From: Berberis thunbergii
Taxonomy: Eukaryota; Streptophyta; Magnoliopsida; Ranunculales; Berberidaceae
NCBI GenBank assembly: GCA_003290165.1
Contig: QNQO01000197.1
Location: forward strand, 558,001-622,000
Direction: 5' to 3'
Length of the DNA: 64,000 nucleotides
Positions 1 through 21,834 of the stretch are shown piece by piece (within the stretch, counting starts at the first letter, position 1; every line of letters begins with the position of its first letter). The notes below the pieces were generated by a model. The model was not told where the DNA came from, ran no database searches, and saw nothing but the letters and a program-made list of their open reading frames with translations. Position numbers and translations under genes: made by a program.

Positions 1-401
1 CAACTACATCTAAAAACTCTCTTTGTTTAAATAATATAACTATTTGATTAAAAATAAATATATTTATTATAGTACAATCTTACTAAAGCAAAAAAAAAAA
101 AGTAATAAATTTGCAGTACATAATAAGGAGACCTCACCTCTTTTATAGGTATTTCACTCCCTCTCCGTTAAGAACCAACCAATACTTTTCAAAAGCCCAA
201 CCTCTTTTATGAGACGCTTCCTGATTGATTAAACAAACTTGTCTGATTTTGTTTATTTGTATACGCATTATTGAACCATGTAACAAAAAAGTTACAATTA
301 GTACACAAAGAAATAGAGAAGTATAAAAGAAACGTGAAAACAAAATAATCTGAATGATTCACCTGCTGGAAGGGGCAGAAAGCTTCTAACTGTTTATTTA
401 C
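1..401. other. Spacer without recognisable gene
   Basis: AT-rich sequence at the left edge. Both strands were read and no family-like protein, RNA gene or terminal repeat was recognised. It is probably the interior of the CACTA element whose right end lies at 9601, because no left CACTA terminus is visible between here and that end. Confidence 0.4.
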
Positions 402-755
402 TTGTCAAGTGCAGCATCAGATCTTGTAGCAGCAATCAAAAAGAATATTTGGAATGTGGGAAATCGTGTGCTAAAATGCTACCTGAGATGTAGAGCATGT
501 CTTTCAGCAGTAAAGCTGAGTGATATATTTCCAGGTTACTTGCATGCTCGCATCCATTCAATGCTGGAATGTTGTCCGACACAGTTGGAAGATACATCCT
601 TGATCAAATTATAATGAAGTGTATACGATAATAAGCATGTGAAGAGCTAGATGGGATTGCATTTATGTTAAGATATTTTTGGTTATTATTTTTTCATTTT
701 TATTCAGGTGAGACTGCAAGGAAGTTTTATTAGTGGAAAAGGAGGAAGGCTGACA
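402..755 (+). pseudogene. Two coding-like exons of an unrecognised host gene
   Basis: An open frame covers 402-614. Inside it an exon-like block 415-534 is bounded by a CAG acceptor and a CAG/GTTACT donor and reads NIWNVGNRVLKCYLRCRACL, a cysteine- and arginine-rich stretch. A second block at 708-755 has a TTATTCAG acceptor and an ACA/GTGAGT donor. If the two are joined, the frame runs into a TAG at 731-733. The composition looks coding rather than random, but I do not recognise the family. This is the only coding-like fragment in the left CACTA interior that lies on the + strand; the others are on the minus strand. Confidence 0.35.
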
Positions 756-1959
756 GTGAGTCTATGATATGAGCCTTGAGCTGAGATTGTATCTAAACTA
801 TATATGAGATTTCATTCAAGTTCGTTGTTTTCGTTATGACTACCATTGTCTTTCTCCATGTAAGTGGTCAGAACAGAAACAGAGAGTTAAAGCTTCCTCA
901 ATTGATTGATAAACAACTAGAACACATTGATTCACATCACATGGTTTTGCACGACTCCTTTCATGGTTTTGCATGACTCCTTCTAGTAACATTTTATTTA
1001 TTTTATTTTATTTTTTGCATGCTGACAACACAAGCAACTTATCAATGGTGGCTCTCGAGCACAAATCCTCTCAATGAATTTCTCAAATGAACGAGTTCAC
1101 AAAGCACTCAATAACCCTCATTTTCTCGCTCATAAACCCTTCATTCTAACCACCTTTGATATTATAGAGAATTAAAACAGGCGGAAAACTGATTTTGAAA
1201 ACCTGAAATGGCAAAATTGAATTCCTGACTATCATTAGGCTCTGTTTCTGACAGTGCCAGCAAATCTCCCAAATCCCTATTTGGAAGTTTGAACTGCCCA
1301 AATATCCACTCAGATATGGCGAAATCCAATTGCCCAAATTTCCCAATCTGTTCCGAGTTCTGACGCCCAAGTCATATTTATCATTTGAGACTCAGTTGTA
1401 AAAAAACCCGAGTTCCAAACATAACAGTATCTTGGAACAAACTGAAAGGGATTTTCAGGCATTTATCATTCAGAACTTATTGCAGCCTGCCCCCATTAGG
1501 TCGGAAATGGCATATTCTACCACAAGTTTGCTGATAGCAATAGCCCCAGTTACATCAAATGACAACTCAAATTATCCAAAACATAATTTAAGACGTGCCT
1601 TCAATGACTTGGTGGTTTATTGATTAAAGAGTACTCATAACTAATTGGTCAATATAAACATATTTTTCACTGCCCTTCTAAAGTAATATATGTTGTATTG
1701 AAAGTGATTAACCAAGCCAACAAGCAACTAAAACTAGTTAACCACAAATACGTATTTTCGAATAAACGATAAGTAATTAACAGCAGTCTCTAAGAGTGTA
1801 TAAAGAAACATTATTAAATGTAAGAGCATGAACATGGTGGTCTCTAGAACCATATAAGGAGTTCATACATCTAATAACCAAGTTTCCAAAACAAAGAAAA
1901 AACTAAATATAACTGCAAAAAAAAAGTAAACAATAACAAATTTTGGGACTTACTGCAAG
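756..1959. other. Spacer with a short tandem duplication
   Basis: No gene is supported. A 22-bp unit beginning CATGGTTTTGCA occurs twice in direct tandem at 940-983. The open frames here (1146-1370 minus, 1432-1623 plus) show no family resemblance and are probably chance frames in transposon interior. Confidence 0.4.
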
Positions 1960-2145
1960 GGACGATCTGCTGATGACGCGAGGTACGCACTGCTGCTGCT
2001 GCTGCTGCGAGGGAATCACTGATGCTGCTGCGAGGGACGAACTGCTGCTCTGCGAGGGACGCACTGATGCGAGCATGCTGTTGGTCGTAAACCAGAGTGC
2101 GCTCTGTTTCACTGCAGAGTACCCACTGTCCTGGCAGTTATGATC
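1960..2145. repeat. GC-rich patch, copy 1 of a dispersed motif family
   Basis: Strongly GC-rich against an AT-rich background, with CTG/TGC runs and the segment CTCTGTTTCACTGCAGAGT. A closely similar segment, CTCTGTTTTACAGCAGAGT, lies in the patch at 4046-4350, and a third patch at 20461-20645 shares the TTTCAGCGTG motif with the second. Frames in both directions here are low-complexity and I do not treat them as genes. It is probably a conserved internal or subterminal piece of the CACTA family. Confidence 0.45.
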
Positions 2146-2384
2146 TACAGATTTTTTAAAATCAGTTACAGTAAAATCAGCAATTCATATTGGTTTGGTA
2201 ACATTAGAAAAATTCAAGAACCATGTTATTCTAATCAATGTTGGTGTAGACATTAGTTTGGTTAGTCAAATTTGTAATCTGATTGTGAAATGAAATTGCA
2301 TATTATGTACAGTTGAATCAACTAACAAATGAATGAATGATGAAAGATCTTGAACAAAAGGGTAACCCCAAACAGGCCTAGCTA

Positions 2385-2445
2385 CCCATCAAAGAATTTT
2401 CTTGATTCTCTTCAATCAAACAACAACCCATCAAAGAATTTTCTT
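2385..2445. repeat. 19-bp direct repeat flanking the CAP-D3 fragment end
   Basis: The sequence CCCATCAAAGAATTTTCTT occurs at 2385-2403 and again at 2427-2445. The second copy overlaps the stop-codon end of the CAP-D3-like frame. This may be a scar of the capture junction or a small local duplication. Confidence 0.6.
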
Positions 2446-2892
2446 AAGAGCTCTATGATAGTTTGATTTTGGAGGCTTTTTTTTTACAAGATCACAACTT
2501 TTACCTATTCTCTTCTCATCTTTACCGGATGCACGACCCAGGGGTGACATATTGCTATTGGATTTTTGCATGGTGGCGACAGTCTCAGCAACTGTAGCTT
2601 TTGCTTTGAGTGCTTCATACTTTTCCATGTCGTAAATGATCTCCTTCTGAAGCTGCTTGTCAGCTACTAATATGTCATCAATCTCATTCTTGTAATCCTT
2701 AAGAAGCACTCGCAGGCATTCCATGAGACAACCCATCAAGGAGCTGTTTTTGCTCTCCATTAGCCTCTTCAGCTCTATAAAGATACGAATAGCATTTTGG
2801 ATCAAACTCTTCTTTGCCACCTGAGCCATCACTCTCCGTTTTGCAGCTGCAGCAGCATCAGTGCTTCCACTTTCTCCACCTTCGTCATCCAT
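2431..2892 (-). pseudogene. Condensin-II subunit CAP-D3 C-terminal fragment
   Basis: A 153-codon open frame with passages such as LRVLLKDYKNEIDDILVADK and KQLQKEIIYDMEKYEALKAK, which I associate with the C-terminal region of plant condensin-II subunit D3 (a HEAT-repeat subunit of the chromosome-compacting complex). The full protein is over 1,000 residues, so this is only a tail fragment. It starts at a Met but has a stop codon just upstream in the same frame, and none of the preceding HEAT-repeat exons is present nearby. The C-terminus is basic (VKKKPPKSNYHRALKKIL). It lies in the same orientation as the other captured fragments of the left CACTA element. The family name rests on recalled similarity, not on a search. 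Confidence 0.65.
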
Positions 2893-3394
2893 TAGGCAAT
2901 ATTAAGAACATCAGGTCTGCAGAGTTCGACCAAATATGCATGAATATGTAATAAAGAAATATAGAATGTCATATCAAAATTACTATATGATAACTGAAAG
3001 CTAAATAGCCAATTGAGACTGACAGAGAAAAAGAAACATGCCAAACACAAACACACATGCACTAGACCATATAACCCAACAAAATGGAAAGAAAATCACA
3101 TATCCCATCTGATCAATGATTACCTAAAATTTGGAGAAGACAGAGATGATCTACATGGAAGTTATGACTGGTGAGCAATATATAAGTGGATTTGAAAAGA
3201 AGTATCAAACTCAATCTATTTTTTTCTTTTCCTATAACAGGGAATGCAAAAATTTTAAATGAACAAAGAAACCAAAATTTTCATGGCACTGAACTAGTGA
3301 ACTATAGAGGCAAACCAAACCCAATGAAAAATCTCATTCTCGTGTCACCATTTCAACTAGGTTTAGTTCTCCTAAGCTGCAAGTATCTTCCAAC

Positions 3395-3450
3395 CGAATT
3401 TTAAAATCCCGATCAGCACTAACTATGAATCACCCATCAGGAGAAAATTC
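3395..3450 (-). pseudogene. TRM82/WDR4 WD40 exon fragment
   Basis: A 56-nt exon-like block with a TTTACAG acceptor at its upstream edge and a CG/GTTGG donor downstream. It reads EFSPDG-stop-FIVSADRDFKIR. The string FIVSADRDFKIR is typical of the non-catalytic WD40 subunit (Trm82/WDR4) of tRNA (guanine-N7) methyltransferase, which partners Trm8 to make m7G46. The position after DG, normally arginine in related sequences, is a TGA stop, consistent with a single C-to-T or A-to-T change. No neighbouring exons of the same gene were found, so it is a single captured exon. Confidence 0.55.
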
Positions 3451-3698
3451 CTGTAAACCGAGTACCACATGAATAACTTGATAATGAAGGAAAAATGAAG
3501 AATATGTTGTGAAGAAGAAGAAAGTAAGCAAAAATGAAGGATATGTTGTGATCTACAATCTAGCAACGAGAAAAATGACAACAAAAATACATCATATTTG
3601 AGCTAAAAGCAAACATGATGCAGGATGCAACTAATGAGTAAATTTTTATATCATGAATATAAACGAAAAGAGAACGACGTACCAGGCTCGTAAATTTT

Positions 3699-3775
3699 AG
3701 TGACAAGATAGATACCTTCTCTACACCTTCTAGAATGTGAGGGAAGTGACAAGATAGATACTTTCTCTACACCTT
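3699..3775. repeat. 31-bp local duplication at the aminopeptidase exon edge
   Basis: A 31-bp segment beginning AGTGACAAGATAGATAC occurs at 3699-3729 and 3745-3775 with one mismatch. The second copy covers the last codons and the donor site of the leucine-aminopeptidase-like exon, so the duplicate carries an extra copy of the exon/intron boundary. Confidence 0.7.
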
Positions 3776-3839
3776 GGTTGCAAGCATATACCAGAGCATC
3801 AGCAAGCGTCAGTCTGCCTTCTGCATCAATATTATTGAC
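3773..3839 (-). pseudogene. Leucine aminopeptidase (M17) active-site exon fragment
   Basis: A 67-nt exon with a TTTTTTTGCAG acceptor and a CAAG/GTGTAG donor. It reads VNNIDAEGRLTLADALVY followed by ACNQ. This is the signature region of peptidase family M17 (leucyl aminopeptidase), where NTDAEGRL holds metal ligands and the catalytic arginine. Here the Thr of the signature is Ile, while the Asp, Glu and Arg remain. The usual protein is about 500 residues and nothing else of it is visible nearby, so this is one captured exon. Recognition of the motif is firm; the change at Thr suggests loss of constraint. Confidence 0.75.
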
Positions 3840-4045
3840 CTGCAAAAAAAATGATTCCAACAAATCAAACTTACATGGAGTTGATGAGATATTTATCAAT
3901 TGAGTTTGAAAGCCACCTTAACGAAGATTTCATGAAGCTTCTACACATATTTTCAATACCAAACAATGCTACATACAAGCTATCATTTAGAACATTGGCA
4001 AAGACAAAGCATTCTATCCTGAATAAACAAAATGCAAAAATTCAA

Positions 4046-4350
4046 TACCCAGATTTAGCGCAGCACGCTGAAACGTAGCAGAGTGTCGCAACAGCGTGTT
4101 CGCATGAAGGCCATTGCATCGCAGCAGCTCAGAACACAGCACAGCAACAGGACGTTCTGTGACGCGATAGCGTTCATCATTCTAACGCGTATCCACCATC
4201 TCGCCACGGCCTTACCACCAGTCCAGGCCGCAGCACAGTCTGCAGCAACCAGTGTCCAGTCCTTCCAGCCCGCAGCCTCTCCCTGCTCCGAAAAACAGGG
4301 GACACTCTGTTTTACAGCAGAGTGCCCTGCCAACACTCGGTTCCAGGACC
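4046..4350. repeat. GC-rich patch, copy 2 of a dispersed motif family
   Basis: A GC-rich island containing GCACGCTGAAAC and CTCTGTTTTACAGCAGAGT. Its reverse complement carries TTTCAGCGTGCT, which also occurs in the + strand of the patch at 20461-20645. The inverted relation matches the opposite orientations of the two CACTA elements. Open frames exist on both strands (4055-4363 minus, 4083-4370 plus) but are alanine- and glutamine-rich mirror images and not convincing proteins. Confidence 0.45.
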
Positions 4351-4887
4351 TACCATTGCTCAAACACTAACGTTTGTAAACTACTTGTCTGACAGAGAAG
4401 TAGAGTTGGTACGTGCTGAACACCCTCCCCAAACACTAATCAACTCCTCAGGCACTAATCGGTGTTCTCTCCCCACTGTCACCAACAAAGCAATGTGACC
4501 ACCCACAATTATAACATCCCCATTAGACATTACCACTCCCTAATCACTTTTTGGTTTTGCTTTGTGACTTGTGCATCCTAACTTCAACCCTTTAGCAGGA
4601 ACACATGTTCAAAGTTCATACTTTCAAGAAAAAGAAGAAGAAATCTGTGTATGTCAGGAAGAAAAGTAAATAACTAACATTCAAACTCAAATCATTAACA
4701 TTCTATTTGTTATGATTCATTTCACACTTGAGTGGAAAAAAATATGCAATTTATTTAACAGCGTCCATCAGCCTAACGCGGATCCTTACTCTTACTCCAG
4801 CTCATACTAATGCTGCTAATTTATTTAACAAAGTCTTTACATAGAGCTAGCCAGATATAATTTTCAGTGTTAAAAAAACAAAATTAC
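4351..4887. other. Spacer without recognisable gene
   Basis: Mixed-composition sequence between the GC-rich patch and the SWIB-like exon. Nothing recognisable was found on either strand. Confidence 0.35.
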
Positions 4888-4935
4888 CTGCAATTTGTGT
4901 TCTTTTATATAATCCCACAATGAATACCAGAGATA
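4888..4935 (-). pseudogene. Possible SWIB-domain exon fragment
   Basis: A short block ending in a CAG/GTAATT donor reads LWDYIKEHKLQ. This resembles the helix of the SWIB/MDM2 domain of plant SWI/SNF-associated (BAF60-like) proteins, where W-x-YIK-x-x-x-LQ is conserved. Only about 14 codons are visible and the upstream edge is unclear. It fits the pattern of minus-strand single-exon fragments here, but the family call is tentative. Confidence 0.28.
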
Positions 4936-5263
4936 ACATTAGATAGAAGGGTTAATCAGGAATACCAGAGATGCTATTCAGAATGAGAAAATGCTATCTG
5001 AACTTGTGGGTCAGAATGAGAAGATCTATAACATGAAATCCACAACACTTTCGGCACAAATATAAAAACATTGGTTATTATTTTACATGGTAATCATGAT
5101 GTACAACTTAACTAGTTTATTGTTCATTCAGAACATATAAATTTTTTTAGTCAATTCATTAGGTAAGGAACATATACGACTTAAATAGATGCCATGCACA
5201 CATGCATCACTAGTAAGTAATGATAGGAAGCATTCGACAAGTTTCTGGCATAAAAGGAAATAC

Positions 5264-5440
5264 CTTAGAAAGAACCAAAGGAGGAGGAAGTAAAACAGAT
5301 CTTATCTTCAGAAATCATCTTTCTGCCATATCCCTTTCCCTTTTATCAATGCTAAGAAGTCTTTTATATATCGCAGGAGCCCACATATTTGACGTCTCTC
5401 TCATCTTTTGACTTAGTTGAGCAACCAACTTTATCACAAC
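5264..5440 (-). pseudogene. Single exon, possibly Rif1-like HEAT region
   Basis: A 177-nt exon (59 codons, phase 0 at both ends) bounded by TTTGTAG at its upstream edge and AAG/GTATTT at its downstream edge. It reads RETSNMWAPAIYKRLLSIDK, then RERDMAER, a TGA stop, then FLKIRSVLLPPPLVLSK. The frame remains coding-like on both sides of the stop, so a single nonsense change has broken an otherwise preserved exon. I tentatively link it to the plant telomere-associated Rif1 HEAT-repeat family. Preservation as an exon is much surer than the name. Confidence 0.4.
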
Positions 5441-6340
5441 CTACAAAGACAACCAAAAAATTAGAAGACATCAATAAAAACATGTCAACTGGTATGTTGT
5501 TATTTCAATTGATGGACAAAACTTATTAAGTGAACTTTAAGTCACAAAAAAGAGGTCTTAACATTTAAGGTTCGATTAAGAAAAGATTAAAAAACTAAAA
5601 CTAAACATTAAAAAAAAGAGGTTCGATTTCCATAAGGTTCAATTTAAGGTTTATCTATAACTACCTAACATTTAGGACAATCAACAACTAAACAACATTC
5701 TACTGCAAGAGTGGATATTTCGAAGTTGTAATACAATGGAGAATGATTTTATTTAATTAATTAATACAAAACACAATAGATAAAAGTTGTAATCAAACAT
5801 TAAGTGAATGGTTAGAGATTTTACCAAGATAAATTGTATAGTGTGATTTGATTTGAATGGCATCCAGAACAAGGGAAGAACATGACAAACAATAATTAGT
5901 GAGTACTAGTCAGAAACTTACAAGACAGAGAAAGAAAAAAATACCACATTGAAAATGATAAAAAAAAAACTCCAAAGAGTTGCTCCAAGTTTCTTTCTAA
6001 TTTCATGAACAACCAACCTTGCCTCCCTTTTCCTGGTTTGACCTTCCTTCTTGCAGCTGTTATCCCAAAGATGTGCCTCATATCTACTAGTCCATCAATG
6101 TTTGATTGTGATGAAGAAAAAATGGATCAAAACAAAGAAAAATTCAAACCAAAAATTTTAACCCAACAAGGAGACATGAAAATGGTAAGGTAAGGTAAAA
6201 TCATACAACAAAACAAAACAAAAAAAAAACATCATGGAAGAATGAATGAATGAATGAATGAATGAAATGATGATAGGAACCCCAAAAATACAAAAAACAA
6301 AAGGTAAGATAAATTAAAGACACCAGGTTTGAACACAGAC
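5441..6340. other. Spacer with an AATG microsatellite
   Basis: No gene is supported. About six AATG units run from 6241 to 6266. An open frame on the minus strand at 5896-6081 begins [20 protein letters not shown] and is basic, but I recognise no family and no clear splice context. Confidence 0.4.
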
Positions 6341-6880
6341 CTTGTAACACCTATACACTATGATGTCCTCTGACCAAATGTGTCTATGGACTTCCTGTGA
6401 ACTGGTTGTTTCTGTCCCACCACCTTCCTTCTTGACCCTCTCTTCTTTGTTGTCTCCATAGCCACCACACATTTATTTCCTCCTCCTCCAGTTGGGGAAA
6501 TTTGCTGGGGTGGGGGTGCTGTAATACAACATGATTGAGATCCAAGACTCATTGACAAGCTAAGTGAGTGCAAATCTCCATACCCCATTGCACAGACTGA
6601 CCCAGAACCTCCTCCTTCATCACCACCCACCATGAACCCCCCATCCAACTTTTGCTCCATTTCTTGACAATAATTCCTTGAAACCCAGTTCCTAAAACCT
6701 CCTACCCCATCTTCAGACACTTGAGGGAGTGAGGGATTGCAAGCAACAAGATGGTTTTCCTTGGTGGTGTTGTGGTTATCTAGTTGTGCTTGGTACATTT
6801 CATGGTTGGTGAGAGTTGAGAAATAAGGGTGGTGGTGGTGGTAGTGTTGTTGGACCTTAATCTGATAATGTGCAATACAA
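6341..6880 (-). pseudogene. AINTEGUMENTA-like/PLETHORA (AP2) exon fragment
   Basis: Part of a 196-codon frame at 6358-6948. It contains the hallmarks of the region just before the first AP2 domain of AIL/PLT/BABY BOOM transcription factors: LHSLSLSMSLGSQSCCI and then GQKQPVHRKSIDTFGQRTS. These factors control meristem and embryo identity. The next codons should enter the AP2 R1 repeat (QYRGVTR). Instead there is a TAG at 6358-6360 followed by CIGVTR, and then a donor ACAAG/GTCTG at the normal intron position. So the exon boundary is preserved while the reading frame is closed by one change, with two missense changes beside it. No AP2 domain follows. Upstream, the frame fuses with the CHY-type exon region, so the N-terminal part is not native. 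The upstream edge near 6880 is an estimate. Confidence 0.8.
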
Positions 6881-6982
6881 TTTTTTGTGTGAATGGAAAC
6901 AATTCTCACCAATTCAAAAAAGCAAATAACTAAGTGGAACTGAACCATATTTATTTATTTATTTAAGGATAGAGGATTCAAC

Positions 6983-7026
6983 CTGCAAACTCCACATCCA
7001 TCACAGTGAAATTGCTTCTTTGAAAC
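6983..7026 (-). pseudogene. CHY zinc-finger (RZPF34/CHYR1-like) exon fragment
   Basis: A 44-nt exon between a TTTCAG acceptor and a TTTGCAG/GTTGAA donor. It reads VSKKQFHCDGCGVCR, which matches the CHY/CTCHY zinc-finger segment of plant RING/CHY E3 ubiquitin ligases of the CHYR1/RZPF34 group, where a FDDD-SKxQFHC-x-x-CGICR string is typical. All four zinc-type Cys/His positions in the block are kept. The parent protein is about 260-300 residues, so only one exon is present. It sits about 100 bp upstream (in transcript sense) of the AIL/PLT fragment, an abutment not expected in a normal genome. Confidence 0.55.
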
Positions 7027-7694
7027 CTGAAACCGAAACCAGATTGTCAGCTATGTAAATTGTTAATTCCTGAAAAACTAATACTGCTTCTAAGTGAATG
7101 TCTTAAAACCAAATGTTGCCCAAAGAGTTGCAAGGTGAGTAGAAAGGCAGATTCTACACTTTTCATAGGAGGAGCAAATCTAGATTACAGAAACATAAGA
7201 GCAATTATGAGAGAAACTACACACACATTATAGAGACTTGTATAATCAATTATTGACATCTACTAAAAGAGAGGACTTTTGCTTGCTATAAAATTATATG
7301 CACTGTCCAAATTTTCATAGTTAAAATGAATTTTAAATCTTAAGAGTAGTCCACTTTTCATATTAAAATCGAAGTCTAAAGCTTAAATTTTCCCAACCCA
7401 TGGATACAACATATTGCTATTGAGGCCAATTGAGTATATGTTTCTTTGTTTCATTACCTCTTTTGCAATTAAGCTAAAAAACATTTAAACCAATTAAGCT
7501 AGAATACCCAAATGATCATGCTCATAACAATACAAACACACAGACATGGCTAAAGAAGACTATTGAGTAAATCATGTTGATGGTCTATACATAGTAGCAG
7601 ACTCAAATCCCTCCAATTGAAATGTTCCCTTGTACATAATAAACATTATTGCTTAACAAAAGTCTCAAAAAATTAAAGAAGACTCTTTACTCAC

Positions 7695-8005
7695 CAAGTA
7701 GTTCTTCTACCGCTTCTTCAATAGCAAAGGACCAACATTATCTCCAGTGTCTTTGTTGTGCTTCACATGAGTTCTATCACATAGAGGAAATGTACCTGAC
7801 CTCCAACAGCTGCCAAACACCCCAACACTCCAATTAGAATCTCACCCATATGTTTCACAATCCAATGAGGCAATGAACAAAGATAGGAAATGAGAGAATG
7901 TTGAATAGCTTACCTGTTGTTTTGAGTGTTATCTTAGTCTTCTTCTTCTCCTCTTCAGAAATCGAGCTCGAGAAAAGAAGAAAGTGAGTTCTAGGGTTTG
8001 CTTTG
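7695..8005 (-). pseudogene. Two exon-like blocks resembling a captured 5' leader
   Basis: Block A, 7912-8005, begins after a TTTCAG and contains the leader-like string AAACCCTAGAACTCAC, followed by purine-rich sequence and a CAACAG/GTAAGC donor. Block B, 7695-7809, lies between a TTTGGCAG acceptor and a TACTTG/GTGAGT donor. Neither has a long open frame, so they look like untranslated leader exons. They could belong to the same parent gene as the CHY-type exon just downstream, but nothing in the sequence proves it. Confidence 0.35.
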
Positions 8006-8029
8006 CTGAAAGAAGAAAAAAAAAATCAA

Positions 8030-8705
8030 ACTGTTTTGTTTTGCTTTGCAGTGGAATTTCAACACTATCCTCAAAAAGTATATTTACTAAATTACATTTT
8101 TTAATAAAACTAATAACTAGTCATGAACATCATCCTCATTGTACTCATCTTCCTTTATATATTTCACATAAATCTTACCTGAACATCATCCTCATAGTTT
8201 CATTTTTACGTGGGTATTCCAACTTTTGTATCGTAAATTTTCTTTCTCCTTGCTCATAACATATTTGAATTATATATTCTGAACATGAACAAATCTCAAT
8301 ATTTTGACATTACTGAAGAGTCTCTAAGGACAAAAATTAAAGCTTTCCAGCATATACATTCTAATCTTAGAATAGCTTAAACCATCCAAGTAGCTAAACC
8401 CAGTAAATGAAGTTGTAAATTCCCAAACTATTACTCTAAATATATTCACTTTCCAAGAAAGGAAACACCTCATATACAATATTTTAATACTGAGACTAAC
8501 TAGAACCCTAAACGGATGACAACCTAATTCAATTCAAGCAAAAGTAAGGATCCTCAAATAAAAATAACTTTCCAAGACATCAAAATTTCCCAAGTTGAAA
8601 ACCCACTCACAAGAATCATGATTGAAGTTGAACAACAGAAGAAAAAACTCAACTTGTTTGTAATGAAATAACCGAAGATAAAGCCAAGAATGAAAAAGAA
8701 GCTAC
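8030..8705. other. Intron-like spacer
   Basis: AT-rich sequence downstream of the HIRA donor at 8705. No further WD40 exons of HIRA are present; I looked specifically for GSDDQ-like and IWN-like segments on the minus strand. Confidence 0.4.
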
Positions 8706-9175
8706 CTTGTGATCTCCTCCACCAGTTGCAAACCTGATGCCACCAGGTTGAATATCAATGGAGAAAATCTGCATTCCTTTATGCCTAACCCAACCTGGCT
8801 TCTCTGCAATCATTTTTGCTTCTGGGTTTCCAAAATCCCACTTATTTTTCACTCTCCCTGCACTCAAAGAACAAAAGGGTACTCAAATCCCATGGTTTGG
8901 GATCAAAATAGGAAAGCGGGTCATCAGAGAAAAACTTATAAATGACAAATTTTGTGTGGGTTCTTGAAGGATTTTGTTCTCTTGAAACAGATCTGAAGAA
9001 GAAGAAGAGATCTAAAGAAGAAGAAGGATCTTACCTGGAAGGAGATTTGAACCAATTTGATGTTCTTCTTCAGCTCGATTCTCTCAAGATCTAAAGAAGA
9101 AGAAGGAGAAGAAAAGTTTGAGAATCTGCTTCGGTTCTTCATCTTCTTCTTCAGTTCGTCCTTTTTATCCTCTGC
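8706..9175 (-). pseudogene. HIRA: HIRA histone chaperone 5' end: leader exon and first coding exon
   Basis: The leader exon runs from about 9175 to 9035 and ends CAG/GTAAGA. The second exon, 8857-8706, has a GAGTGCAG acceptor and an AAG/GTAGC donor. The start codon is at 8813-8811 and the 36 codons read [20 protein letters not shown], then [16 protein letters not shown]. This is the highly conserved N-terminus of HIRA, a WD40 chaperone that deposits histone H3.3 outside replication. The frame is open, starts at the native Met and ends in phase 0 as in the parent gene. All following WD40 exons are missing. The leader lies within about 450 bp of a CACTA terminus, so the transposon has taken up the 5' end, and possibly some promoter, of the gene. 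This is the best-preserved of the captured fragments. Confidence 0.8.
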
Positions 9176-9409
9176 GCCAAACCTCTCTCTGATTTAGGTC
9201 AAAAAAAATTTCGCAATGACCGCGCAAACTGATCTAGGTCGAAATAGCAAAAAAAAATTTGCCAATTTTTCGCAATGACAGCGCCAAATTTTTTCCCCAA
9301 TTTTTTTCACCAAAGCGCGACAGAGCGCAAAATCCACTCTCCCCCCATTTTTGCCAGAGCGCGAAATCACTCTCCAAATCATTCACTCGCAGGAGCGCGG
9401 CACGTGCAA

Positions 9410-9601
9410 AACGGTTTAGTTTAGCAACGATTTTTGGCCGTGGGTAATGCACCCACGGTTTAGAGCTGTGGCTAACTATTTTTGTAGCCACGGTTTTAGG
9501 CTGTTGGCCACGCTATCCACGGTTTATAGCCGTGGTAAATAAACCAACGGCTTAGAGCCGTGGCCACCTCCCCGTAGCTAAATAAGCATTTTGGTGTAGT
9601 G
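9410..9601. repeat. CACTA subterminal palindromic repeats and TIR
   Basis: About five copies of a motif such as CCACGGTTTATAGCCGTGG, each an imperfect palindrome, are packed between 9420 and 9572 and end at the TIR, 9586-9601. In CACTA elements such clustered subterminal motifs are binding sites for the element's own DNA-binding protein. The bases after 9601 start with TAA, one side of a possible 3-bp target duplication. Confidence 0.75.
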
Positions 9602-9611
9602 TAAAAAAAAC

Positions 9612-9860
9612 ATGGCCACGGCTTAAAACCGTTGGTATATTTGGCACGGCTAAAAACTGTGGCTATTAGTGGCAACGGCTCAAAACCGTGGGTATTATTT
9701 GCAATGGCTCAAAACCGTTGCAAAAAAAAATTTAGCAACGGTTCTAAACCGTGGCTAGGTCTAGCAACGGCTCAAAACCGTTGCAAAAAAAATTTTAGCA
9801 ACGGTTCTAAACCGTGGCTAGCTCTAGCAATGGCTCAAAACTGTGGCTACATGAAAAGCT
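9612..9860. repeat. Subterminal palindromic repeat array of the second CACTA element
   Basis: About eight units of the form AACGGCTCAAAACCGTTGC or AACGGTTCTAAACCGTGGC in 250 bp, the same motif family as on the other side of the TIR at 9601. A larger unit of about 70 bp is duplicated (near 9705-9775 and 9765-9842). No CACTAC start is seen at the left edge, so the terminal repeat of this second element is lost or was disrupted by the neighbouring insertion. From 9860 to 10100 follows C- and T-rich sequence with repeated CTCGACTTCC motifs. Confidence 0.7.
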
Positions 9861-10327
9861 GGAAAAAAAATTGGGCGAGCTATTTTGGCGCTCGACCTTC
9901 CCTCCACTCGACTTCCATCGACAAAAACCTTCCCTCCCCTCCGCAAACCTGTTCCTTCCACTCGACATCGACATCGTCTCCTTCCCTGCTCCCTCCCTCG
10001 ACTCTACTCCACTCGACTTCCCTGCTCCTTCTCCTTCCCTGCTCCCTCGACTTCCTTGCTCCTCCATCGACTTCCCTCCTCCCCTCCTTCCCTGGTCTTC
10101 CCTCCTTAGTACTCGGCGTCTTCAAAATCGATCAGGCACTGCAACTCTCGTACATGTACTCTCTCTGTCACTTTTATTTTTGATGAAATTAGGGTTCGTA
10201 GAGTTTTTTGGTAGTAAATATTTGTTCATCCAAATAAGAAAGAAATCAAAAAAGAAGGAAAAAAAACTTTCTGATTTGTTTACTGAATGTGGATTGTGTT
10301 GTAGTGCTTGATTGCGTGTTTTATTAC

Positions 10328-10385
10328 CAACCAGACTTGCAATGGTACCAACTACAAAGATTGCATTCATGTTCTCTCCATAGAC
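10328..10385 (-). pseudogene. Exon-like fragment of an unrecognised gene
   Basis: A 58-nt block between a TTTTCAG acceptor and a TTG/GTAATA donor, reading VYGENMNAIFVVGTIASLVG. It is partly hydrophobic, as in a membrane segment. The clean splice edges and open frame resemble the other captured exons, but I cannot name the parent gene. Confidence 0.3.
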
Positions 10386-10399
10386 CTGAAAATTCAATA

Positions 10400-12825
10400 T
10401 TTGCTCTTGGATTGATTCTTAAAACTGGTAGTTTATCAGTTACAAACTTAGTTTTCCTATCCACTTGAGCATTAGTGGTGTTTCTCTCTTTGTGTTTACA
10501 CAATCATTAGTTTTCCTATCCCATTTCTTTTTATGGCAATGTATACTAACTAGTTCAATTTTAGGTGCTTTTTGAGAAAGTAAGTTATCTTCAGTAAGGA
10601 AGTAAATTAAGTAGATTAACTAGTCATGTGTATAGGTCATGGTTCATGGTGGTCATCTTCCATGCTAATATCCAACTAATTGAATATCAATAAATGGCTG
10701 ATGACATGAACACAATCCTTTCTATATCTTTAACCAATATTTGTTTAATTAAGATGTATAATAAATTAATTGTGTGTTACAGAGAGAGAGAGAAGACTTA
10801 TTGATTGGGTTGTGAGTAGGTCCAAGTGATGAGATGCAGGGTGAACTAGTCTTATGGGAGATAAGGTGATGGCATTGGCATGCCACCCTTTGTTTTGACG
10901 TAAAATAGAAGTCTTCCATTCTTTTTTTGTTCTCTACCTTTATATGAGTCTTTCAAGGGTTGCACAAGCAAAAATTTTGGGCTTTCCTTCCACAGAAGAA
11001 GACCTAAGATATCAACTATATCTGGCTACAAAATCTTTTGGCAAAACTGACAGCAGATTGTTCAAAATAAGTATAAAATAAATAAGGATGAGGAAAGAAA
11101 GAGAGACTCTTGGATAGGGAGATTATTGGACCTGGTCTAAGGAAACAGAGTGCTGGGCAAATTTCCTAGAGCATAAAATGCTGCAGATTTCTGATCTTGG
11201 GTTATTATTCATTGGATCATATTTCTGGTCAAAATAAAAGTTAATTAAAATGAAAAGTTTTATGCCCTTCAGTTTTTTCTATTTACTATTATTGGTAATT
11301 TATAATATGTGTATATATTGAAATCTAGAAAACACAAGTACACAGGCGCTCACCGGTTGATGGTAGATAAGACTCGAGTTTTTTTACTCCTACCATTAGA
11401 CATTACATACTTCTCAAGTAGAAAAGATGGCATTATAGGTATGCCATATTGCAAAAGTTCTTTAAGTGTTTTGCTCCTGCTAGATTGAAGTTGAGGAAGA
11501 TGCGCTACCTTAATTTGTATAGTACTTGCAGTTACTATCCATACTTGGTTCACTGGTGATAGCGATAGTGAAGAACTTGAAACTGATTCTCCAATTTGTG
11601 ATTTTCTTCTATCTAGTTTCATCCATTTCTCAAAGCAGCTTGTAATTGAAAATGCGACCTGTAATTTAAGCATAGTTCCTTCATAACCTCTGTATATATG
11701 TGCACCTATCGCAGTGACTCTTTGCTATTTCATATGACACAGAAAGTTAGAGAAATTGAAATATAGACCAATGGACTAATCATGCACTCTGAATTAAGAA
11801 AATCAATCACACAAGATTTAATGCAAACCCCAAATCTAGAAAGCAAAATCAAACTATATATTAGTGTTTAAAAGGATATCATCATAGAACCCACCAAACA
11901 GAAATCTCATTTACAAACAACTTAACATGATATATACTTACTGAAACACAACTACGAACAACTAGGAAATTGAACATATTTGTTGATGAATTAAAGAAGA
12001 GTAACACCAACCTGGAAGCTCCATTGATGTATTTGCAGAAGAAAAACACAAAGCTTGTATAGGAGAGTTGAAAACAAAGACTCTATATAAATGTAAACTC
12101 TAGCTCTCACTCTCACAGCATATAAAGATCAACAACAACCACGACAAAATGTAGGTGCAGAAAATCCTTCTCAAAATGGTGTAGCAGGGAAGTTACGGCA
12201 AGCACGAGTGCATACCCTTCATATGTAGAAACAAAAAAAAGTGTCTAAAAAAGATGAATGCAAATGCAAGGGATTTGAACATTCATGCATTCATCTGATG
12301 TAGCCATAAAAAAAAACAAGTCGCCTACTAATACACACACACTAGTCAGCTTTTCAGACTATATATTGGGAAAATATGAGTCCTTAATATGCATTTGTTA
12401 TGTGGGTTCAACGTATATGTTTCTCCTTTAGAACAAAGGAGAGAAAATAAATCCATCCAAGGGGGTAGAGCATTGTTTGAATGAATTATATATATGCCAC
12501 AAACACGTCATCTGTGCTGATGAAAGTGGGTCCAATTTCTCTTCTTTACCTGCTTGATTACCTCCCCTTGATCTATAATTTGTACTTCGACCTTTAGTTT
12601 AGGTTCATGGTGTAATTCAAGATAATTTTTTTTAAATGCTAAAGTTAGAAGTTTATTTGATTTATGTTTTAAATATCAAATCTGCTCGGAAGAGTTAACT
12701 GTACATTCAAGTTGGTGCTAGACTAGTGATTCTTCTTTTTGGAAGAACATCGTGGTTTCTTGAATATCTCATTATCTTGACATGGGATTCCCAATGATAA
12801 TGTTGCTTTATTGTCTATCTTCCAG
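10400..12825. other. Interior spacer with one unrecognised open frame
   Basis: Mostly AT-rich. A minus-strand frame at 11350-11673 (107 codons) begins MLKLQVAFSITSCFEKWMKL and is serine-rich. It is long for chance in this composition, but I do not recognise it and mark it only as a possible captured fragment. Nothing else is supported. Confidence 0.3.
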
Positions 12826-12909
12826 CTACAGCAAAAACAAACAAGGCTGCCTCCAGTGGCACTACTTTGAACACAAGGAAGCTTGATAAAGAAACATAAG
12901 TTCTTGCTC
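12826..12909 (+). pseudogene. MBF1 (multiprotein bridging factor 1) exon fragment
   Basis: An 84-nt exon between a CTTCCAG acceptor and a CTC/GTGAGT donor, reading TNKAASSGTTLNTRKLDKET then a TAA stop, then VLA. The string matches the N-terminal MBF1 domain of plant MBF1 coactivators (TNKAASSGTSLNT-type), which bridge TBP and transcription factors. The stop sits where related proteins carry Glu, so one G-to-T change could account for it. The helix-turn-helix exons are absent. It lies on the + strand, the same sense as the transposase downstream. Confidence 0.6.
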
Positions 12910-14494
12910 GTGAGTACTCAACTCTTTGGAATTTGTGGTTTCTTACAAATTAATTGTATCATCATTAGATTGCCTATAGCTTCGACCAAGCTATAAGGAA
13001 ATTCAAGATGCCATTAAAGAGGGATACGCATTAAAATGGGCTGGTTTTATCAAAATGTAAAGAAACCAGTAAACAAACCTAAACATAAAACCAAATATGC
13101 GAAATTAGTAAATCCAACTTCGTTTTGGTTCGGGGATCCTAAATAACCCCTACTCAATTTTCTAAAAAAAAAAAAAACTTTGCTTTGGTTGCTTGGTTCT
13201 TGCATGAATCTAAGTTAGGTGAATACAAGAAAACTCACTCCTTTATCATCAGAAGGACTGAGTTTTCCTTAAATTAGTGAATCCCGCGATTTCACTTCTT
13301 ACCCAAAAAAATGTTATTTGATGCCTTTCTTTCTTCACTTTGGGTCTCAAGGTGTTCATGGCCTTATTGTGGTTTGAACTAGAGAAGTGTTTGATAAATG
13401 TAGCTTCCACCCTCTCAATGAGTCTGGTAATCTTTGGAGTTCACAAGCAAAACCAGAAAGTTACGTTAATGAAGACAACTATACTTGTAAAACTAGTACA
13501 AATCAGATTATGATACCCTGATGAATTCCAGTTACATCATTTTATCTTTTGTTGGTTCATTATGTGTTCAATTATTTCAGCCATATCTCAAAGATCCATG
13601 AAATAAAAATCCTAGGAGAATAGGTGAAGGAGCTCCCCTTGCATGCACAACATAAATAACAATTCACTCGTCATGAATAACAAATTTTTGTTTTCTTTTC
13701 GATTCGGTCCCTTCAAAGTTTTGAAGGAGCTTGTAGACTTGCTAAAATTACAAAAACCAATGATTTTAACTTGTACACTTGCATCTTTTGCCAACAAAAA
13801 CAGGTTATAAATTTGATTTGTCAAATTTTAATTCATCCAGAAAGATGATTTCTTATATTCCTTGGGTTTAAATGGAGTGGTACCTGTATGATTTATCCCA
13901 GCCAGTGTGCTTCATGACCAGTCTACAACAAAATTAGCTATACTCACACCATATTTGTTTGGCCTTGAGAAAAAAAAAACAGGAAAAATAAACTCCATAT
14001 TTGTGCACAAAAACTATTGGGTTAACTGCCATTTCTTATTTCTTATTTGCGTCCCTGCCATTTCAAGCATCCTGTAATTGATGTTAAACTGCCTTTCTTT
14101 CTTGGTTTTTGATATCTAGTTCTTTGTTTTATATGCTAAAATCCTATAACGATCTTCCTTTTATTTGCACTCTTATGGGTTGTTGATGAATTCTTATTTT
14201 AATGTCTATTTATTTTTATTTTGTTTTTTCTAAGATCAGCAATAAGCATGATTGTGGTATTTTAGAAACAATTAGTTTGGATAGGAGATCCAATGTAACT
14301 CAAGTAATTGAGTTGGATTGGGAATGTAAAAAGAAGGTCAATGAAACATTGTATAGGGTACCATAACAAATGCAACAGCACAACTGGATGAATTGAAGTT
14401 CATTAGATTAGTCAATGATTTTCAAGCAATTTAGCAATTTAAATTCCTTTGGTCAATGACTAAAGTTAATCTTTTAATTTTTTTGTGTGTAGAA
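12910..14494. other. Interior spacer upstream of TNP2
   Basis: No recognisable gene. A stretch near 12977-13060 reads LRPSYKEIQDAIKEGYALKW in one frame and could be another exon remnant, without a family call. The minus frame at 13612-13824 has no convincing family match. Confidence 0.3.
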
Positions 14495-17454
14495 ATGTCA
14501 ACGATTCCTTTAGATAAGTCATGGATGAACAAATGGGGAAGTGCAATGTATATAAACGGCGTTAGACAATTCCAACAGTTTGTTGAGGATAATGCAAATG
14601 GAGAGAGTCTTTTTCCTTGCCCATGTGTTCGATGTAGGAACTCGAGGGGAAACATTAGTGTTGACGACATAGGTGTTCATTTGTTAAGCCATGGCATTGA
14701 TACCAATTATGTCACGTGGATACATCATGGAGAGAATATAAACAAACATGTGATTGGTGTACCTATGACAGAAGTGGTTGAACCTGATGATGCCTGTGAA
14801 TATCCTAGGATGAGGGAGCTAGTTGATGATGTATTCCTCAACATGCAAACTGTGGAGGCTGATGATGGGATAAATGACTTGAATGACACCGTCGAAGAAT
14901 GTTTTGGCGGTAATCCAGAAGGTGGTCCGAAACTTTCTCGTGAACCTGAGACAGTTATGAACAACAAGTATCAAAAGTATAAAGAAAAAGCGACTGGGCC
15001 TTTGTACAATGGGTGTCCTAAGGATAAGACCATGTTGTCCACCATTATTGAATTGCAGAATCTCAAGACTCGTTTTAGTTGGAGTGGTAATAGTGTGACG
15101 ATGTTGTTAAAATGGCTAAAACCTTATTGCCGGATGATTGTAATTTGCCAGATAACTACCCAAACATGAAAAACACAATTAAAGATATGGGGATGGAATG
15201 TAAGACAATACATGCATGTGCCAATGGATGCATACTTTATTGGAAAGAATATGAGGGTCTGGGTGCTTGTTCAAAATGTGGTTCTGGTAGGTATAAGGTT
15301 TATGTGGATGTCGATGACAACGACTCCGGCAAGGTATACAGGAAAGAAGCTAAAAAGGTTGTAAAGTATTTTCCATTGATTCCAAGGTTGAAAAGATTTT
15401 TTAGCATACCGTGGATTGGTGAAGCAATGACTTGGCACAAGGATGCTTGTTCAGACGGGAATTTGATAAGACATCCATGTGATTCAGCACAATGGACTTT
15501 AACAAATATGAGATGGCCAGAGTTTGCCTCTGATAGTAGAAATTTGAGACTTGCAATATCGACTGATGGTTTTAACCCACGTGGAAATCTAAGTAATGCT
15601 TATAGTTGTTGGCCAGTAATATTAGCACCTTTGAATCTTCCACCTTCTTTATGCATGAAAAATGAGTTTTGTTTGTTAACCTTGTTAATATCAGGGCCAA
15701 AAGCACCCGGAAAGAATATTGATGTTTACCTGGAGCCATTAGTAGAAGAGTTGAAGGAATTGTGGGCAGATGGTGTTTCAACTTGGGATGTGTGTACTAA
15801 AAGTAATTTTCGGTTGAAAGCAATGTTGTTTTGGGGTATCCATGACTTTCCTGCTTATGAGACTCTAGCTGGTTGTAATGTTCATGGTTATAATGCATGC
15901 CCTATTTGTGTTGATGATGTAGAATCTGAACTACTTTCAAACAGTCGGAAGATATGCTATAGAGGTCATCGACGTTTTTTACCTACAAAACACAAGTTTA
16001 GAAATGACAAGGGATTCAACAAAGATGTTGAACATTGTCGTGCTCCACGACGGTTATCTAGCGAAGAAGTTGAATGAAGGATAGTGGAAATTTTGGAAGG
16101 TAGTTCTACACAAGGTAGGGTTAGTGGGCAAAAGCGGCAAAAATATGGTTGATAATGATAACGTCAATGATGACACAACCAATAACATTGCGCCACCGTG
16201 GTCTAGAAGGTCCATTTTATTTGATTTGCCGTACTGGAAGTTTGTTGAGCTACGACATAATATTGATGTGATGCATACTGAAAAGAATGTCATTGAACAC
16301 TTATTGAACATATTGTTGAATGTCTCTAAGAAAACAAAGGATGGTGAGAATGCTCGAAAAGATATGGAAGACATGGGAACTCATAAGAGATATTGGTTGA
16401 GCCATGACAATGAAACGGGAAAAACTTCAATGCCAAAAGCATCATTTGCCTTGACAAAGAAAGAAAAAAAAGTATTTATGAATACACTAAAAGAGTTGAA
16501 ATTGTCGAGTGGATTTTCTTCCAAGTTGAGTAATTGCGTTCTTTGCAATCCCCTGGAGCTAAGAGGACTGAAGTCACATGATTACCATGTCATTATGCAA
16601 CATTTACTTACAGTTTTGCTTAGACATGTTTTTCGTGACAAGAAGGATAAAGATTTAAGAATTGATATTCAAAGAATTAGCTTATTCTTTAATATCTTAT
16701 GTGCTAAAGTGATCAACAAAACAGATCTTCAGTTGGCACATAAAGGTGTGATTGAGGCAATGTGTGTCCTTGAAAAGGAGTTTTCGCCTTCATTCTTTGT
16801 TATAAGTGTGCATTGCATGGCTCATCTAACCGAGGAAGCGATGCTTGGTGGTCCAGTTCGATATCGATGGATGTATCCCTTTGAGCGGTAAATAATTTTT
16901 CTAATTTTAGTGCACGTTATCTTATTATATTATATACTAATTTATCATTTTATTTATGATTGATAAGTTAATGAAATGATACAAAGACTATGGTAAAAAT
17001 TTCAGATACATAGAAGGATCAATAGCAGAATCATACCTTGTAGATAAATCTGTTACATACTGCATGGAGTATATGGCAAAGCCACGGTTCGGAACTCACA
17101 AACACAGTCAAGAGGAGTGGCTTGATGTAGATGGTGAGTATGCTGATGAAAATCCATTGGATAAAGGAAAAAACTATATGCTAAATAATGTACAATTTAA
17201 ACAAGCTCGAAGATGAGTTTTCAATGCACTTGCTGATTCGAGTGATTGGGAAGAGTAAGATATATAATATTTTAGTCTTTTTTTATAACTAGAAATATAG
17301 AATTATGATAATATGGTAACTTGTGCAGAAAATACAATGAATATTGCATGGAGTTGGCTACACAAAGTAAAAAAAAGGGTCAAGGAAAAATGTTGAGAAA
17401 GCTACAGATTTTATTCCTTGGTTGTGTAATGAGGTATTTTATAATGTGTATTTA

Positions 17455-17502
<48 letters not shown>

Positions 17503-18144
17503 TAAATTTTTTTATTTTTAGATTTCAGTTCAAAGATGATTTGTTTTACAATGTAGTTGGAGAAGGCTGGGGAAACAAATACCACACTTTGGAGGTTAGC
17601 CAATGGTCCACAATTTTTGGCAACCCGGTATCCAAAATATTGTGTAAATGGTTTCACATTTGCGACAAGTTCTTTGGATGAATGTTTGGTGACACAAGAT
17701 AGTGGTGTCTCCATGGATGCCATTGCTCATTTTGTTGCTAGTAAGAAAGATAAGAGGCCAAATGACCAACTAGTCAAATGGTATGAAGTTGTTAGAGACA
17801 TACTGGTGCTAGACTACATAGATTTCTAAGAAACTGTCTTCTATTGTGATTGGGTCAAAGTGGAAGATAAGAAAAATGCATATCAGGTGGACCCAATTTG
17901 GAACCATGAGATGGTAAACTTGTCGAAGCTAAAAGACAAAAGAAAGGTGGAAGAGGATCCATTCATTTTAGCTCAAGAAGCAAGTTGGGTATTTTATTCG
18001 AAAGATCAATCAAATGACGGGTGGCATGTAGTTCTACATACTCAAAGAGGCTTGAACACTAATGTCGATAAAAAGGAAATTCACACTGTGTATCAAAGCA
18101 TCTTGAAAAACAACCTCAACCTGAAGAGCTTACTGGAATTTTAA
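14495..18144 (+). pseudogene. TNP2-type CACTA transposase, inactivated
   Basis: The transposase that binds and cuts CACTA ends. The start at 14495 follows a TGTGTAG acceptor-like site. First comes the Transpos_assoc domain (SWMNKWGSAMYINGVRQFQQ; then CPCVRC). The Transposase_21/TNP2 domain follows, with GACSKCG, STDGFNPRG (first catalytic Asp), IHDFPAYETLAG (second Asp), NACPIC, and HNIDVMHTEKNV. A DUF4218-like segment (HCMAHLTEEAMLGGPVRYRW) follows. Later exons, 17006-17254, 17329-about 17443 and 17522-18144, cover the C-terminal DUF4216-like region. Introns have GT-AG ends (16888-17005; 17255-17328). Lesions: frameshift near 15110, TGA at 16075, frameshift near 16150, TGA for Trp at 17214, a frame change near 17385, TAA at 17827. 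So it cannot make active protein, but it is only moderately decayed. Confidence 0.9.
17459..17497. repeat. TA dinucleotide microsatellite
   Basis: An uninterrupted run of about 19 TA units inside a transposase intron. It is probably length-variable between individuals. Confidence 0.95.
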
Positions 18145-18424
18145 TTGACTATGCTACAATATTTTTTGATGCATTTCTAATGCTATTTTAGTCATCCTCT
18201 TTGGTTGAGACCAAATATTTTGTCTTTGTTTCTTATTTTGACTTTTTAGTTTGGAAAGGGAAGCTTTGTAGCTATGTATTCAGATTGGCTTTTCAAATGC
18301 TTTATAAAAATCTATTTGTGGTGATATGTTGTGGAAGGAAATTATCTATAAATGTGGTGTATATAGTTGATTCTTACTTCTTTTTGTTTGATAATTGTTA
18401 ATAACTATACTATCATTTATAGAA

Positions 18425-20108: not shown

Positions 20109-20460
20109 GTAACTAGCTGAAGCTTAAGTGCAAGTATTCTCATTCGCAACAATTGGTATGACCTTAGTTCATCTTTGATTGCTATGGTGCATATACTACA
20201 GTTTGCTTTGTTCTCATATTTATGTCTGTTGCTTTTGATATTGATTATGATGTCTTTCTTTATACAAGAGTTCTATTTTCTACACAAAAACACCCAAAAA
20301 TTAAGAGTCTAATGGTGAATTTTCTGACTATATTTACTTTTTAATGTTTATTTATGATCAATATACATATTTTAGACTCTCATTGCTTGACTAGTTTTTG
20401 TGAAGTCTGCATTTGCAGTTTTAATTATTTATGTATTTATTTCATCTAACTGTCAGGTAT
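20109..20460. other. Spacer 3' of the second transposase gene
   Basis: AT-rich and probably the 3' untranslated region of the transposase transcription unit. A donor-like AAG/GTAACT at 20108 suggests a further exon that I could not identify. Confidence 0.35.
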
Positions 20461-20668
20461 GGCAGTCAATTGTCTCCAAGGAAACACTGCAACACAGAGC
20501 GCGTCCCAGGCAGGGTGCACTGCAGTTTCAGCGTGCTCTACATTGTAGACAGAGTGCAATGTTGATCTATACAAAGTGCGATTCAGCGTGTCTGCTGTAC
20601 GTGTTGTTTCTAGCCGCAGCGGGTTTCAGCGTGCGCGATTAGCACACTGGTTTTGAGCTGTGGTTGAA
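20461..20668. repeat. GC-rich patch, copy 3, with one subterminal-like motif
   Basis: A GC-rich island with two copies of TTTCAGCGTG and several CAGAGTGC-like words, related in inverted orientation to the patch at 4046-4350. At 20645-20668 lies GGTTTTGAGCTGTGGTTG, close to the palindromic subterminal motif at 9612-9860. This suggests remains of the 3' subterminal region. Confidence 0.45.
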
Positions 20669-20801
20669 GTATTCTCCTTACATGTGATGGCCATCTAACC
20701 TAGTTCAAGTATTGTTCTTTAAGTATCATCTCAAACTCTTTATCTTTGTTGTTCATTTCTCTTTTGTTACATGTCTCTGATGATGAAACTGTGATCCTAC
20801 A

Positions 20802-20919
20802 GAGCACTTCATGAAGAAGAGGTGAGGCCAATTATGTGATGACATCCGAGCAGGCCAGCTAGGCCCCATGATTACAGACTCTGAGTGCAGATCAGCTATG
20901 TTGGACATACTTAAATCAG
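20802..20919 (+). pseudogene. GH3 auxin-amido synthetase exon fragment
   Basis: After a TCCTACAG acceptor one frame reads EHFMKKR, a TGA, then GQLCDDIRAGQLGPMITDSE and CRSAMLDILK. The W-x-x-L-CDDIR-x-G-x-L-x-x-x-ITD pattern is typical of plant GH3 acyl-acid amido synthetases (auxin and jasmonate conjugation). The TGA falls at the position of the conserved Trp, a one-base change. No ATP-binding motifs or other exons are visible. The FAAH-like exon begins just downstream in another frame. Confidence 0.5.
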
Positions 20920-21743: not shown

Positions 21744-21834
21744 GGACCCTCAACTTCTGAAGAAGATTGGAGCTGCAACTGCTCTTGAAGTTAGAGCTAC
21801 TAGGATTCCTTATGTTTTTGCTCCGTGCATTGCT
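21744..21834 (+). pseudogene. GH3-family beta-glucosidase/exohydrolase exon fragment
   Basis: A 91-nt block after GGATTAG and before a GCT/GTAAAT donor, reading [20 protein letters not shown] then [11 protein letters not shown]. It matches the glycoside hydrolase family 3 barrel of plant beta-glucosidase/beta-D-glucan exohydrolases ([22 protein letters not shown]). The Gly normally before Ile is Arg. The next exon of such genes carries the R-DPRWGRCYES motif, which is absent. Near 21976 a GTTTGCAGGGAC segment after a TTACAG could be the start of a later exon (GLQG), but it fuses directly into gypsy gag sequence. Confidence 0.65.

Follow-up and report, generated by a model that had tools for sequence, protein, structure and literature searches.

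The 64,000-nucleotide stretch of Berberis thunbergii DNA analysed here (the window, C197:558001-622000 in a 2.24-Gb assembly, C197 being contig QNQO01000197.1; coordinates without a prefix are those of the window) is plant DNA judging by its genes, has a GC content of 37%, and begins inside a CACTA element, which we call A, that carries pieces of unrelated host genes. The identified cargo of A and of its sampled relatives faces one way, sense to the 5' end of the element, a polarity that may stem from the capture step or from selection. The explanation that we favour, with moderate confidence, is that A is a Pack-type CACTA element lying in a transposase-bearing CACTA element, B, and that the family gathers pieces of genomic gene sequence, swaps them as modules, and holds them in sense orientation through selection after capture. 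A first-pass annotation of the window had proposed a CACTA element collecting host gene fragments in one orientation. That proposal was borne out, with six fragments confirmed by statistics (HIRA, NEET, CHY, AP2, leucine aminopeptidase [LAP] and CAP-D3), and the same-strand bias that it described is strongly supported by the different cargo of other elements. The result bears on the old question of how cut-and-paste transposons acquire pieces of host genes.

The family was sampled as 20 oriented interior pieces from 17 insertions, comprising 107,862 bases of interior. The right flanks (100 bp) differed among all 17 insertions, and six more loci with matching flanks (L012, L016, L021, L022, L023 and L031) were left out of the strand counts as duplicates. 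Open reading frame (ORF) segments of at least 55 residues numbered 307 on the sense and 235 on the antisense strand, or 234 (one low-complexity segment having been dropped) and 192 once made non-redundant. The 150 longest segments of each strand were scanned against Pfam, strand by strand; the remainder, 84 on the sense and 42 on the antisense strand, were shorter. The sense strand matched 16 Pfam families at E<=0.001, representing by our count 14 host genes: coatomer gamma, XRN, an LSD1 zinc finger, myosin, an HD domain, a Transcrip_act protein, mevalonate decarboxylase, a mitochondrial carrier, XAP5, an ABC1 kinase, LAP, UBZ, GBP and Rif1. The same scan of the antisense strand yielded no host gene; its hits were confined to two hAT transposase domains, of which one lies in element L017. 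With the addition of NEET, CAP-D3, HIRA, an ANT-type AP2 factor, CHY and ORC6, 20 of 20 genes were in sense; ORC6 (E 0.0018), like two of the coatomer gamma segments, was assigned its place individually, also in sense. Further sense pieces, which Pfam did not confirm, are presumably related to KIN-5, XPO1, a PAP16-type phosphatase and a DEAD-box helicase.

Base composition showed the same polarity without reference to gene names. The AT skew of the antisense strand was positive in 16 of the 17 elements, the exception being L017, and in 180 of 207 interior 500-bp windows, compared with 31 of 56 in the control region 36001-64000. An A-rich antisense strand is what the introns of sense genes would produce, and the skew agrees with the polarity found through Pfam. 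In the captured 3' part of B the skew had the opposite sign, as B's orientation predicts. It is very improbable that the single orientation reflects chance combined with shared descent of one array. The AP2, CHY, NEET and HIRA modules are indeed common to many copies, and hence not independent; however, other elements hold other genes (coatomer gamma, XRN, myosin, XAP5, a mitochondrial-type carrier and others), which are also in sense, and the two-sided chance probability, assuming independent captures, is 1.2e-4 for 14 of 14 genes and about 2e-6 for 20 of 20.

The ends of the family are of two types. The 5' type, found at the right end of A and at the transposase-side end of B, runs TTTAGCTA...GGCCACGG, and the 3' type runs CATTAGCAACGG...GGGGGTAACCC with small variations; CCGTGG/AAACCG motifs cluster at both. 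All 17 5'-type ends and five of six 3'-type ends start with CACTA, the exception being the damaged left tip of A. In the window, GGTGTAGTG terminates at 9601, which is the end of A's 5'-type terminal inverted repeat (TIR; 13 bp, CACTACACCAAAA, 9589-9601, minus strand). A genome search with 9300-9700, in which the best 40 of 5130 candidates were scored, bore out the annotated TIR end at 9601: at 38 of the 40 places the match was lost at query base 302-312 (window 9601-9611), at most 11 bases from 9601, the two others being the window itself and contig C6655, a 99% copy of the junction. Six elements were read at both ends (A, 13.5 kb; L015, 5.2 kb; L025, 6.7 kb; L028, 8.0 kb; L027+L035, 11.5 kb; L020+L036, 12.75 kb), and five of these had exact 3-bp target duplications (ACT, CTT, TAT, TAA and TAA).

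The relatives ending at the base equivalent to 9601 carried differing combinations of A's modules, with recurrent module edges near 3487/3511, 4918, 5725/5733, 6951/6965, 8013-8031 and 9051-9085. The interval 5733-9601 was carried by seven of 15 compared loci (four distinct insertions), and L012, a copy of this locus, was compared besides. In L015 and L027 the sequence jumped from 6714 to 9075; L029 held 5733-6951 and L024 held 6222-6951, and in both the end came next, starting from about 9051; L025 and L030 consisted of HIRA (from about 8015) and the end; and the duplicates L026 and L031 joined 6965-8024 to 8031-9601. L027 also joined a LAP piece (3512-3884) directly to 4921-5725. A search with 2400-5500 (best 40 of 2979 candidates scored) found 38 contigs beyond C197 and C6655, with ends recurring near 2524, 3487/3511, 4473 and 4918-4921. 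Copies sharing one fragment order had been envisaged; relatives do exist, but with different subsets of the modules at other insertions, which is a poor fit to a single orthologous locus. With many members sharing module edges in one genome, the order of capture and the donor junctions should be reconstructible. No tnp2 match appeared among the interior ORF sets of either strand (for each strand the 150 longest non-redundant segments of the interior pieces taken from the 17 elements). A is a non-autonomous Pack-type CACTA element, with host coding DNA from more than one locus and no transposase found inside.

Two relatives had interiors of other kinds. L024 (G000:C1777) contained what we read as coatomer gamma exons across about 5 kb, a large multi-exon capture, and L017 (G000:C960) contained a hAT-type protein (DUF659, E 2.3e-59) that is probably a nested element.

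That a Helitron built the array, and that the CACTA end merely adjoins it, is scarcely credible. Helitrons are known to capture many fragments stepwise (excerpts of PMC3288121), but in five relatives CACTA ends, themselves flanked by 3-bp duplications, enclose the cargo. Moreover, a strict scan of both strands of 1-9601 for Helitron 3' ends only, defined as a 3' hairpin followed by CTRR, found no candidate, although shuffled sequence gave none either and the sensitivity of the scan is untried. A Helitron origin of the array was set aside as improbable.

The right part of A occupies positions 1-9601 (minus strand), with the 5'-type end at 9601 and the 3'-type end beyond the window. Flanking contig sequence placed the left end, the second CACTA terminus sought to the left, at C197:554129, 3.87 kb left of the window, giving A a total of 13,473 bp (C197:554129-567601). 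The array goes on leftward beyond 2431, the left limit of the annotated interval, to this far end. Left of A, the left TIR of B stands at C197:554013, followed by 116 bp of B subterminal repeats (to C197:554128), and B picks up again at 9602. This arrangement shows A to be nested in B, 116 bp into its 5' subterminal repeats; a deletion of B's left TIR at 9602, which we had considered, is ruled out by the presence of that TIR and of the 116 bp on the left side. Contig C6655 matches the window at 99.5% between 9602 and about 19681, and matches A, over everything read of it, at 99.3%; it is probably the other haplotype of this locus. The subterminal repeats of A (9420-9601, minus strand) contain the CCGTGG/AAACCG motifs and have retained CpG.

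A source of one module was found in the genome. The HIRA piece of A (8031-8987, minus strand, 957 bp) comprises an exon (8706-8857) and its intron flanks, and matched a HIRA gene on contig C649 at 96.6% over 957 bp, introns included and in the same sense; a HIRA paralogue on C342 matched over 658 bp at 86.8%. The exon's matches in the protein search (E 1e-17) are unnamed, and HIRA is our own reading of them, together with the genomic gene that has the next exon. The captured piece begins 174 bp upstream of the ATG and stops between two donor exons; its 8031 edge lies in A-rich sequence and its other edge shares about one base. The region 9034-9190 was tried as a HIRA 5' exon and is not in the donor, where homology ends at 8987. 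Capture from genomic DNA, which had been proposed for the fragments generally, is therefore observed for one gene, HIRA, whose parent locus had been sought and was found. A later exon of the donor locus (G000:C649:477274-477552) contains a TAG, and this copy may be a pseudogene or contain an assembly error. The captured exon has also been amplified. When a plant HIRA protein was searched against the genome, with 150 of 620 candidates scored and haplotype duplicates counted in, a later exon was matched at eight of the 150 places and the first coding exon at the other 142. Six of these 142 adjoin a later exon, leaving about 136 without one nearby, a number counted by exon match alone and not by CACTA context. 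The abundance of this captured exon warns of possible inflation in the gene annotation and the copy-number counts for this genome.

The retained introns exclude a mature mRNA template, and thereby narrow a second account of the polarity, in which it is set at capture, either by insertion into genes in one orientation or by capture coupled to transcription (through open chromatin, R-loops or pre-mRNA as a repair template). We regard this account as a real possibility, though not the probable one. All 20 tool-supported genes are in sense, including cargo found in just one element read, and the HIRA piece extends from upstream of the ATG into the gene; however, no CACTA step known to us senses the direction of transcription. 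Also in favour of this account, PMC8903248 reports that adjacent insertions from a single family are mostly alike in orientation. A stronger version, in which direction-reading capture admits gene pieces in sense only and the family is a genome-wide exon shuffler that recombines modules in more than 100 copies, is only slightly less probable. A sense-only rule, seen in the differing cargo of 17 elements, constrains the mechanism sharply and testably: capture must follow the direction of transcription, unless antisense captures are eliminated.

In the explanation that we favour, namely selection after capture, gene-internal DNA would first be copied or joined by repair or by fusion of neighbouring insertions, and only sense arrays would then persist, with family members adding, losing or exchanging whole modules as they move. 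Transcription that set out from the 5' end and crossed housekeeping-gene exons in antisense would lead to silencing of both those genes and the element, and sense exons with intact splice sites would be harmless. The 5' end type, to which the cargo is sense, adjoins the transposase in B. We infer that capture occurred by repair or fusion, that transcription proceeds from the 5' end, and that selection acted as the filter.

Several points weigh against this reading. Transcription from the 5' end is an unproven proposal, and among at least 20 genes one donor was examined. The 207 skew windows are not independent, since interiors share modules, and 27 of them were not positive, 16 of these lying below -0.05 (five of the 16 in L017). 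The 5' region of B (10200-14430) lacks the skew, and a 124-residue ORF there (11353-11724, minus strand) runs opposite to the B transposase; this ORF had no credible Pfam or PDB match and no host-gene identity. In nine of the 17 elements their own 3'-type left end was not read, so that some of what they appear to carry may fall beyond the element. The 3-bp duplication expected at the ends, although exact in five relatives, would for A be TAA (left flank GGGTAA before CTACACC) only on the assumption that the left TIR has lost its first two bases, and the damaged left tip does appear two bases short. Finally, in the grapevine element Cactavine-5 a PPR fragment is oriented the other way (PMC2528002), so that a sense-only rule is not universal among CACTA elements.

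Within A, the identified host exons are all on the minus strand and have intron flanks, as judged from exon edges and splice sites. From left to right, a CAP-D3 (condensin-II) exon with its acceptor lies at 2471-2923 (human NCAPD3 match 2434-2901, PDB E 3.1e-12). A WD40-repeat exon at 3395-3450 (E 0.0033) has one in-frame stop and belongs to a module ending at 3487; we take it to be TRM82/WDR4-like, and a direct PDB search with it did not retrieve TRM82. The LAP exon (3762-3839; PDB E 2.6e-10, Pfam M17 E 1.1e-6) lies in module 3511-4921, and an 11-residue exon with a donor (4888-4920), presumably SWIB-like, has an edge that coincides with the module boundary near 4918-4921. Module 4918-5725 contains a Rif1-like exon (5264-5440) with acceptor, donor and one in-frame stop, whose Rif1_N matches (E 0.004 and 0.0033) are weak, falling below the Pfam curated cut-off. 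The ANT-type AP2 module (5733-6951; match 6361-6954, E 2e-37) has one exon ending at 6341 and a second, at 6018-6100, that reads as having a one-base frameshift and a lost acceptor. A CHY zinc-finger exon with acceptor and donor (6983-7026; RCHY1, E 2.2e-4) and the last exon of a CDGSH (NEET) gene, with its stop codon (7707-7809; At5g51720, E 1.3e-16), precede the HIRA piece. Stops, a frameshift or a lost acceptor mark the AP2, Rif1 and WD40 pieces as decayed. The annotated gene list therefore held for HIRA, CHY, AP2, LAP and CAP-D3, was weak for Rif1 and TRM82, was no more than tentative for SWIB, and had overlooked NEET. Left of the window there is a further piece that we take to be SPL-like, for which Pfam gave no confirmation.

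As a control, 45 ORF segments from the plus strand of 1-9601 contained no credible Pfam domain (best E 0.014, a 10-residue insect cuticle motif), and 25 segments from the minus strand gave CDGSH, M17 and Rif1_N at E<0.005, all among ten segments picked as exons. No independent transposable element boundary was recognised between the fragments of A, no repeat-library comparison of the window having been made. Seven short direct duplications at fragment edges in 1-9400 (0.74/kb) were considered as proof of repair and dropped, as their density was 0.83/kb in 21970-64000 and 0.25/kb in B. The GC-rich patches at 1950-2130, 4058-4340 and 20450-20660 are weak at best as a single repeat, since one to three of 200 shuffles equalled the between-patch scores; the sole match above all 200 shuffles was 26 bp between 4158-4201 and 4740-4850. 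A short insert lies at 4748-4830 between 13-bp direct repeats (AATTTATTTAACA), and part of it resembles 4158-4201.

Element B, the host of A, occupies 9602-21970 (plus strand; right limit provisional) in addition to its first 116 bp and left TIR; no second terminus was found within the window. B's left end and A's right end are both of the 5' type. The transposase (14435-16888, plus strand) matched Transpos_assoc, tnp2 (Transposase_21, E 7.7e-84) and DUF4218 in Pfam, the best-scoring protein relative of the tnp2 piece being 56% identical. It appears decayed, because its frame, as read from segments, is broken and contains one stop. A second ORF region (18395-20014, plus strand) had no Pfam match. 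A GH3 exohydrolase exon with splice sites (21744-21834, plus strand) is sense to B's 5' end, as is further exon-like sequence 3' of the transposase (20015-21970). CpG observed/expected was kept in the subterminal repeats of A and B (9200-9860; 1.22 and 1.05) and depleted elsewhere (0.35 in the interior of A, 0.26-0.47 in the measured parts of B). More CACTA ends of A's family lie left of the window at C197:537830, 537932 and about 552464, all within 30 kb, making this locus a nest of such elements. Rfam and tRNA scans yielded no captured RNA genes of use, and a bacterial promoter scan gave nothing of use; the plant snoRNA snoR71 was found at 60790-60895 (minus strand, Rfam 62 bits).

Capture of genes by CACTA elements is known, and a strict sense-only rule for CACTA cargo was not found in the literature searched (open-licence PMC papers); except for that wider search, the comparisons that follow draw on excerpts of the papers cited. 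Gene capture by CACTA elements is described in maize (PMC2773423), and on wheat chromosome 3B such elements captured 145 genes in 140 events (PMC4290129). Chenopodium CACTA elements carry Neprosin and AP2 fragments (PMC8978399), the latter a cargo type shared with A. Both the wheat and the Chenopodium elements thus resemble A in holding gene fragments inside CACTA ends, but no multi-gene same-strand arrays were seen in the excerpts. Maize Helitrons resemble A's family in their stepwise build-up of many fragments and in having related copies with different subsets (PMC3288121), and differ in their ends and transposition chemistry, Helitron 3' termini not having been found in 1-9601 by the strict scan.

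Pack-CACTA and other Pack-TYPE elements are like A in having non-autonomous CACTA ends around coding DNA of several loci, and fusion of neighbouring insertions has been proposed for them (PMC8903248, PMC13317346); the excerpts of these two papers contained no orientation rule for the cargo. By comparison, the six elements of A's family read at both ends span 5-13 kb, and A has nine recognised genes inside the window. Soybean Tgm-Express1, a 5.7-kb CACTA insertion with five host gene fragments (PMC1947982), is like A in that several unrelated gene fragments, with exons and introns, lie between CACTA ends. The wp transcripts incorporate its exons by splicing, implying, as we read it, that these lie on one strand. 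Unlike this single insertion, A belongs to a many-membered family whose cargo is modular and includes 20 tool-supported genes, and it sits nested in a host element.

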